Part shown: one piece after another, positions 24,818-26,497 of the stretch
How positions within the stretch are numbered: the first letter of the stretch is position 1
Layout of the letters: each line of letters begins with the position of its first letter
IMG/VR virus record: IMGVR_UViG_3300047333_000045
Location: 1 to 38,647 of that record
Length of the DNA: 38,647 nt
Origin: a virus
Strand: one strand, 5' to 3'
Notes under the pieces: generated by a model
Seen by the model: the letters and a program-made list of their open reading frames with translations, nothing else
Told to the model about the DNA's origin: nothing
Database searches by the model: none
Translations under genes and position numbers: made by a program

Positions 24818-25180
24818 ATGTCAGTAAACATTGCTTCGCTGCCTCCACAAATTCAGCAGCGCTATAATGCTAAGTTACTGTCAACTCCAGAGCACAATTT
24901 GATTCACAATTTGTTTGCCTCACCTGTCGAGTTGCCAGATAATCAAGGTTTTATCGATCGTCAATCGCGCTACGATAGACTAGATCTATTTGAAGTGCCT
25001 CTAGACGATGGTCAAAACAACCCACCACCACAACAGCTTAACCGCGTTGATGTGGATTGCCGTGTAAGAGTATATGCAACCTATATTGTATTAACTCGTC
25101 AGGTAACAATTACTAATGAAGACCCTAAAATGTATGGGGTCTATAAACCAGCGATAATGGACTTGGAACTCCTCGCCGCT
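24818..25180 (+). CDS. major capsid protein, exon 1 (N4-gp56-like)
   Basis: Codons 1-121 of the capsid gene: MSVNIASLPPQIQQRYNAKL, then FASPVELPDNQGFIDRQSRY, LDLFEVPLDDGQNNPPPQQL and NRVDVDCRVRVYATYIVLTR. It ends ...KPAIMDLELLAA exactly at the group I intron, whose first bases supply an in-frame TAG. After splicing to 25859 the frame continues VLNSAAARLGQSLRETQ, for a 333-residue protein. Pattern and length fit the N4-gp56 group of HK97-fold capsid proteins. The order scaffold, capsid, connector supports it. Ribosome site AAAGGG. Confidence 0.82.
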
Positions 25181-25677
25181 TAGACGGACGGACAACAAGG
25201 CGCAAGTGAATATAAGGATTTAACGGGATGATTGCGAAATCGGGAATTAATAGATCGAAGTTCAAGGTAGCACTGATAGCGAATATCATGTATTTCTTGA
25301 GAGATTTCTTTCTTTTGAAGCCTACGATGCGGAATGAAGGTACTTCTCATTCTCATCATAATTTCACATTGTCTCTTTTTAACAATGAGGTAAGGATAAA
25401 TTTTTGGAAGAAGTTCGTCGAGTTTTTTACCAGTAAATTGGCAGTTATGGATAGTTCGTTCCTTTTTGGATACGCGGGTTTTCCTCTCTTGCTGATTGTT
25501 TGTAGAACCAAATTTATCACGAATCCAATCCATCAGATCTTTATCCGTGTTAGAAATCTTGATATAGGTATGGTAGTTGAGAAGATTATGTGTAGCTTCG
25601 GTTTGAAAAAGACCGATAAAGAAGCATCCTTCTCCATCTATGATTCCAGCAAGATAAGCAATTTCTGTTTCAATCAT
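25180..25677 (-). CDS. LAGLIDADG homing endonuclease, antisense inside the intron
   Basis: A 165-residue protein. It begins MIETEIAYLAGIIDGEGCFF, where LAGIIDGEG is the catalytic LAGLIDADG helix. YHTYIKISNTDKDLMDWIRD with KFG and the long basic C-terminus (LIVKKRQCEIMMRMR) fit the single-motif class, which works as a homodimer of about 160 residues. Its stop codon falls on the exon-intron border, so its last 20 or so codons are antisense to the ribozyme core (P1-P5). Good AAAGGTG ribosome site at its own 5' end; it needs a minus-strand transcript. It should cut intron-less capsid alleles. Confidence 0.93.
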   Translation of the reverse strand: MIETEIAYLAGIIDGEGCFFIGLFQTEATHNLLNYHTYIKISNTDKDLMDWIRDKFGSTNNQQERKTRVSKKERTIHNCQFTGKKLDELLPKIYPYLIVKKRQCEIMMRMRSTFIPHRRLQKKEISQEIHDIRYQCYLELRSINSRFRNHPVKSLYSLAPCCPSV

Positions 25678-25858
25678 AAAACACCTTTGTTAATGATTAA
25701 ACAGTATGCAATAAAACCGAATATTTGTACAGCGTGAACGACTAAATTCACTGGCCCCAAAAAGGGGATGCGATAGTCTGAACTCTATGGAGACATAGAG
25801 AGGGAGATCCGAAGAGGTTTCCCCGCCTGAGAAATCAGGTCACAAAAGTAACAGAAAG
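25181..25858 (+). mobile_element. group I intron in the major capsid gene
   Basis: 678 nt, a multiple of three. P1: exon CGCU (ending at U25180) pairs with AGCG-type guide sequence 25199-25202, with the required U.G at the splice site. P3: AGUGAA (25205-25210) with UUCACU (25747-25752). P5: GAUUU with AAAUC (25217-25241). P7: GACUA (25740-25744) with UAGUC (25774-25778). P8: CCCC/GGGG. P9: CUCUAUG-GAGA-CAUAGAG (25783-25800), a GNRA loop. A further hairpin CCTGA-GAAA-TCAGG (25826-25839). The intron ends on G25858. Removal joins two capsid frames without a gap. The endonuclease gene inside is on the opposite strand. Confidence 0.87.
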
Positions 25859-26497
25859 GTACTCAATAGTGCAGCAGCTCGTTTAGGACAAAGTTTAAGA
25901 GAAACTCAGGATGCCCTCCAGAGAGATAATCTTGAATCCAGCGCGAGTATTATAAATTGTGTAAACGGTACCAATGGAGATATTCCAACGGAAATGAATA
26001 TCGCTGATGTTGACGACGTCTTCACAGTGCTCCAGAACAACTCTGGAGAGTACATCACAAACATCGTAGAAGCTGATTTAAAATTTGGTACATCACCCAT
26101 TGGTGATGCATATGGTTGCATGCTTACAACACGTATGATACCTGTTTTATATAATATGTCAGGTTTCGTTAAGAAATTCCAATATCCAAATATCTCACAG
26201 ACATTGTCTGTAGAGATAGGTGGAGCTAACAACGTACGTTTCTTTGTATCTGAGCAAGGTTCAGTCTCTCCTAATGCTTCATTGCTAGGCAATGACGTTG
26301 CTAACTGCTTTGTATCAGCGAAAGAGGCTTACAAGGTTGTGTGGCAATCAGGTGGTAAAGCACGCTTTATCTATCTACCTCCAGGATATAACAACGACCC
26401 ATGTATGCTTCGTCATACAGCAGGTTGCTCGTTCTATCAAGGACAGTGCATTACAAATGACCTTTGGATTCAAAACCTACGCTCAACAGGTATTTAA
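25859..26497 (+). CDS. major capsid protein, exon 2
   Basis: Codons 122-333 of the capsid protein: VLNSAAARLGQSLRETQDAL, NIADVDDVFTVLQNNSGEYI, then FGTSPIGDAYGCMLTTRMIP, NVRFFVSEQGSVSPNASLLG and FIYLPPGYNNDPCMLRHTAG. There is no ribosome site or start codon at its beginning, as expected for a 3' exon. The first ATG in frame (25994) lies deep inside the fold. The stop at 26497 is followed by AAGGAGG for the next virion gene. Confidence 0.85.
   Translation, partial: VLNSAAARLGQSLRETQDALQRDNLESSASIINCVNGTNGDIPTEMNIADVDDVFTVLQNNSGEYITNIVEADLKFGTSPIGDAYGCMLTTRMIPVLYNMSGFVKKFQYPNISQTLSVEIGGANNVRFFVSEQGSVSPNASLLGNDVANCFVSAKEAYKVVWQSGGKARFIYLPPGYNNDPCMLRHTAGCSFYQGQCITNDLWIQNLRSTGI

Follow-up and report, generated by a model that had tools for sequence, protein, structure and literature searches.

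A spliced intron that carries a LAGLIDADG gene (gp14) on its bottom strand has been described in the capsid gene of mycobacteriophage LittleE, with support from RT-PCR and protein sequencing (PMC3706429). The Didymium rDNA introns Dir.S956-2 and Dsq.L2066 also contain antisense homing endonuclease genes (HEGs), for which an internal promoter has been proposed and antisense interference discussed (PMC9548176, PMC3679873); the antisense arrangement is thus not unprecedented. Intron-encoded endonucleases are also found in phage group I introns such as those of T4 td and nrdB and the I-PfoP3I type, and in td an HEG-specific promoter lies inside the intron (PMC2988022, PMC3428280).

We analyzed a 38,647-nt stretch of viral DNA (the whole of IMG/VR record IMGVR_UViG_3300047333_000045, hereafter the window), in which, judged by sequence comparison, a mobile group I intron in the capsid gene very probably carries an antisense cassette with an I-MsoI/I-CreI-type HEG in its P6a loop. 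The LittleE intron (JF937101) resembles it in being of group I type, in interrupting the major capsid gene, in its U at the exon end and G at the intron end, and in its bottom-strand LAGLIDADG gene. However, a covariance model of the 3′ domain built from relatives with the window excluded (model R1) gave no match to the LittleE intron (L211) at E ≤ 0.001, so a homologous ribozyme was not detected there by this measure, and the LittleE HEG, by inspection, lies downstream of the P7/P9 region rather than in P6; LittleE therefore looks like an independent instance. The two HEGs are only 35% identical over 60 aa. The Didymium introns share an HEG antisense to a group I ribozyme, but they reside in nuclear rDNA and encode His-Cys endonucleases whose genes contain spliceosomal introns, with the Dsq.L2066 HEG at P9.2. 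The T4 and I-PfoP3I-type introns differ in having GIY-YIG or HNH HEGs that are expressed within the transcription units of the host gene. I-MsoI and I-CreI, which come from algal chloroplast introns, have the single-motif LAGLIDADG fold and intron location of the window HEG at about 14-23% identity. The same ribozyme core is found in compact HEG-less introns at other insertion sites, two of them in the same capsid gene (L048, L071) and one between fragments annotated as coat protein (MW202674). We found no description of antisense P6a HEGs as a class in the open-access literature. Antisense HEGs and capsid introns are themselves already known from Didymium and LittleE, and the novelty lies in a lineage-wide design: what was formerly a footnote (LittleE) can be a stable arrangement throughout a lineage, in a highly expressed capsid gene.

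Insertion site and splice junctions

The interrupted gene and its parts are as follows.

24818..25126, plus strand: major capsid protein exon 1, 103 codons, ending ...TNEDP; intron-less homologues (L001-L047 and others) go straight to VLNS
25127..25858, plus strand: group I intron, 732 nt, supported by the pair of U25126 with G25136 of the internal guide sequence (IGS), by omega-G25858, by homologue alignment and by covariation
25859..26497, plus strand: exon 2 of the major capsid protein, 212 codons and the stop codon; matches phrog_1357 (major head protein) at 2.3e-12

A previous examination of the letters alone (the sequence-only reading) had proposed a group I intron in the major capsid gene, and the exon 2 match, the covariance model and covariation agree that such an intron interrupts this gene. 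That reading had joined the exons at LLAA/VLNS. The resulting protein matches PHROG major head protein 1357 at 5.5e-15, and when viral contigs were searched with it, dozens of uninterrupted capsid homologues of 945 nt (315 aa) were recovered, the closest up to 91% identical (e.g. L001). Translations of the intron-less homologues read ...TITNEDPVLNSAAARLGQSL..., continuous across TNEDP/VLNSAAARLG; exon 1 therefore ends at U25126 and the intron spans 25127-25858. Both intron ends are set by these homologues, with U at the end of exon 1 and G at the 3′ end of the intron, and the spliced window protein (103 + 212 = 315 aa) has exactly their length.

The homologues place the 3′ splice site after G25858, where it had been proposed, but the 5′ site at 25180/25181 was 54 nt too late, giving an intron of 678 rather than 732 nt. 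In the alignment the VLNS side of the earlier junction fits, whereas the LLAA side brings in 18 extra residues (KMYGVYKPAIMDLELLAA), for a protein of 333 aa, and the true neighbor of VLNS is TNEDP. These residues, between TNEDP and the stop at 25181, are missing from the intron-less homologues and are therefore intron sequence; the 18 codons correspond to P1/IGS, P3, P4 and P5 of the ribozyme. The earlier placement at 25181-25858, in which the HEG stop coincides with the 5′ splice site and the overlap is under joint selection for protein and RNA, would account for the frame that stays open to the TAG at 25181-25183 and for the HEG stop (25182-25180) that touches this TAG. We nevertheless regard it as extremely unlikely: besides the absence of the 18 residues from homologues, the same stretch forms the conserved P3-P4-P5 region in introns at other sites, no good P1 is visible by inspection at 25180, and the HEG tail is conserved in neither length nor frame.

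With the intron placed at 25127-25858, its presence is optional at a fixed site, as most close capsid homologues lack it. The HEG-bearing intron of L086 occupies the window's site, while in L081-L085 it lies 3 nt upstream (GAGGAU/CCAGU) with a different guide, an apparent shift of insertion site by the same HEG intron. L098 and L093, whose capsid genes are 41-51% identical, also have introns at the site used in the window, in which the LAGLIDADG insert is small or absent, and the guide sequence of L098 is the same as that of the window. More broadly, capsid genes in this phage group are a hotspot for introns, with related ones at many sites from about codon 64 to 286 in window-protein numbering and at least three in the L081 gene. 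A second site near codon 279 (L077, L079, L110, L129, L082) holds introns with sense-strand HNH-like ORFs in the P6 loop.

Ribozyme fold and its detection

The core was assigned to the following plus-strand elements.

25121..25141: P1, GACCCU (25121-25126) with IGS GGGGUC (25136-25141), read from the sequence; splice-site U opposite G25136
25132-25135 (GUAU) with 25859-25862 (exon 2 GUAC): P10 candidate
25148..25154: P3 5′ strand, partner 25748-25754; covariation over 53 introns
25162-25165/25196-25199: P4
25170-25172/25190-25192 and 25176-25178/25185-25187: P5 and hairpin; TCC/GGA vs GCC/GGC in relatives
25200-25203: P6 5′ strand, partner 25732-25735; C-G/G-C swaps
25206-25207: start of P6a, partner 25729-25730
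25730..25845: ribozyme 3′ domain (P6 3′, P7, P3 3′, P8, P9, P9.1, P9.2); model R1 and covariation
25740-25744/25774-25778: P7
25748-25754: P3 3′ strand
25755-25758/25764-25767: P8
25783-25789/25794-25800: P9
25802-25809/25816-25823: P9.1

Covariation was assessed in an alignment of 53 introns of the family from which the P6a loop had been removed, with slid helices as the control. P3 is 93% canonical, against 35-61% when slid, and all seven of its pairs (7/7) are changed on both sides in some sequences. P6 is 99% canonical (8-42% when slid) and P7, which has one compensated pair, is 100% canonical; covariation is also seen in P5, P8, P9 and P9.1, and P4 is invariant and thus uninformative. Covariation and the match to R1 together show a P3-P9 core with the P3/P7 pseudoknot of group I introns. 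R1 matches the 3′ domain once in the 38.6 kb of the window (E 5.8e-32), and it also detects both introns annotated as Intron_gpI in Staphylococcus phage 110. The P7, P8 and P9 pairings of the sequence-only reading were right; its P1 was wrong and is replaced by the GACCCU/GGGGUC helix, a scheme that is repeated with a different IGS in L048, L071 and L082. P1 with its U.G pair, together with omega-G, recurs at different insertion sites in L048, L071 and L081-L086. L048 (after LGQSL) and L071 (after NNDPC) have other guides and the same core. A scan with the core pattern (GACTTGGAA...GACAACAAGG) found it in at least 119 contigs.

The Rfam model Intron_gpI (RF00028), a search suggested by the sequence-only reading, gave no match to the window with a cut-off as loose as E ≤ 10; the 0.5-kb insert in P6 is the probable cause. 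The compact sibling L048 reaches 26 bits when 261 bases are searched (E 6e-5), short of the 50-bit gathering score. Environmental viromes may contain capsid genes that are wrongly annotated as split ORFs, because introns of this lineage escape Intron_gpI. A U4atac match in the Rfam scan of the window (E 1.1) was dismissed as chance.

The missing Rfam match, together with a C.A mismatch in the window's P3 (25152/25750), could also be taken to mean that the ribozyme has decayed, that splicing does not occur and that this contig has a disrupted capsid gene. We judge this highly unlikely, since all core helices and splice signals are intact and covary, both exons are open and conserved, and relatives with the same arrangement retain coding exons. 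An active ribozyme, as we propose, would be formed by 25127-25207 and 25729-25858 folding as one on the plus strand, and would remove the 732 nt in the usual two-step reaction started by guanosine, joining codon 103 (P) to V.

The endonuclease gene and its tail

25677-25180, minus strand: LAGLIDADG homing endonuclease gene, 165 aa, in the P6a loop; PF00961 2.7e-6, I-MsoI/I-CreI by profile and fold, dN/dS

A single-motif LAGLIDADG gene on the opposite strand had also been proposed, and protein comparison bears this out. The motif is LAGIIDGEG with catalytic Asp14; PF00961 is matched above its cut-off (and in 22/23 HEG members), and phrog_5046 at 1.5e-23 over residues 3-146. The profile search matches I-MsoI and I-CreI, and an AlphaFold model (mean pLDDT 80.5) finds I-MsoI in Foldseek at E 6e-8. 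In six close relatives (L081-L086, 79-82% identical) this capsid gene also contains the ribozyme with the HEG on the opposite strand. For pairs in which dS could be estimated, dN/dS over codons 1-148 is 0.06-0.19, and differences fall at the three codon positions as 505/291/1231 (pairwise counts, which are not independent). By these sequence measures the minus strand encodes a genuine I-MsoI/I-CreI-type endonuclease under purifying selection.

The plus strand is open over 169 codons at 25228-25737, and a long open plus frame is present in several relatives. We give next to no credence to a reading in which this ORF, and not a minus-strand shadow of it, is the true gene of the intron: the plus-strand ORF has no family match, the LAGLIDADG fold belongs to the minus frame, and the third positions at which the minus frame changes most (505/291/1231) are first positions of the plus frame. 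We therefore rejected the sense ORF as the shadow of the minus-strand HEG.

The last codons of the HEG are antisense to the ribozyme core, as had been noted: codons 157-165 (about nine) are complementary to the P6 5′, P4 3′ and P5 3′ strands (25180-25207). The stop (minus-strand TAA, 25182-25180) falls within the hairpin loop of P5, 54 nt into the intron, and with the splice site moved to U25126 its supposed coincidence with the splice site vanishes. Selection on the same bases for RNA fold and protein, which had been suggested for this overlap, is not supported: the stop occupies three positions among seven close relatives, a 1-nt indel in the P5 3′ strand puts the tail of relatives out of frame, and pLDDT is below 50 in residues 147-165; about nine codons are too short for dN/dS. 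Among 69 antisense HEGs, 19 stop inside the core, 32 at 0-8 nt outside the P6 strand and 18 further out, although the far-out values may reflect mis-paired domains. This pattern fits an HEG whose stop is usually at the edge of the core, with occasional read-through, and the overlap appears to be a read-through tail, possibly a dispensable one.

Antisense orientation and candidate expression signals

In 25 introns found by the ribozyme pattern, all 26 LAGLIDADG ORFs in the P6 loop (26/26) are antisense. When the best 80 viral loci by HEG similarity were examined, both ribozyme domains lay antisense in 64, one domain in 15 and neither in one, with none in sense orientation; 79/80 of these loci are inside capsid-gene homologues, mostly near codons 85-110 in window-protein numbering, and the antisense count (79/80) therefore comes from one inherited lineage and not from many independent events. 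Antisense placement is, on this sequence evidence, a trait of a lineage that favors capsid genes of uncultured phages. Related introns contain HNH-type ORFs, typed by motif only, that appear to be on the sense strand. The HEG relatives in the cultured phages CcrRogue (Caulobacter), Samisti12 (Streptomyces) and StenR_269 (Stenotrophomonas) are annotated in the orientation of their neighbors and were therefore set aside as a different architecture. Of 50 relatives in bacterial or archaeal genome contigs (L215 and L216 are among such genome loci), three likewise have the ribozyme antisense, possibly as phage sequence.

The upstream region of the HEG contains two candidate signals.

25703..25731, minus strand: putative sigma-70-like HEG promoter; -35 TGTACA (25731-25726, in the P6a/P6 3′ strand), 17 nt, -10 CATACT (25708-25703)
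25688-25682, minus strand: Shine-Dalgarno-like AAAGGTG

The window's putative promoter agrees with the consensus at 8/12 positions and was not listed by a generic promoter scan of the window; its register is conserved in relatives. The best promoter scores of 43 distinct HEG upstream regions have a mean of 8.98 of 12, against 7.85 in shuffles, 41/43 exceed their own shuffles, and 36/43 have a Shine-Dalgarno sequence of at least 4 nt. At the fixed register a score of at least 8/12 is reached in 26/32 HEG-bearing introns, 15/41 long-loop introns without a LAGLIDADG match and 0/64 compact introns, a comparison in which 137 domain hits were left unclassified and whose sequences are related, so that p-values overstate the case.

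We propose that the P6a loop contains a cassette of about 0.5 kb in which a minus-strand endonuclease gene is served by a ribosome-binding site, and probably also a sigma-70-like promoter, of its own. The endonuclease, probably a homodimer, would cut intron-less capsid genes near NED/P/VLN, whereupon the intron would be copied in. Antisense placement may serve to spare the abundant capsid pre-mRNA from endonuclease translation. The separation of endonuclease expression from splicing in a mobile intron thereby becomes testable.

No terminator-like site was found in the window between the HEG stop and exon 1, and an antisense transcript could therefore reach the capsid start region. It is possible that such an RNA interferes with splicing of the capsid pre-mRNA. 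Compatible with the proposed cassette, though in our view rather unlikely, is a regulatory role in which pairing of the HEG transcript with the capsid pre-mRNA puts off splicing or translation until infection is late; the conserved promoter-like sites and the absence of a terminator-like site would suit it, whereas antisense transcription may be a tolerated side effect, and L098 and L093, which lack a full HEG, occupy the same site without such a transcript. Equally tentative is the broader idea of a distinct capsid-intron lineage in which the HEG is fixed antisense, its -35 box is drawn from the P6/P6a strand, and antisense RNA would delay capsid splicing until the HEG promoter is off.

Short sense ORFs of about 60-120 aa, some with C..C pairs, are present in the P6 loops of L111, L152, L156, L093, L206, L143, L113, L160, L204, L142, L200 and L170. 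They start 2-6 nt past the P6 5′ strand and end in the P7/P8 region, and from this start position the core strand ACAAGGGGCAAG could act as their ribosome-binding site.
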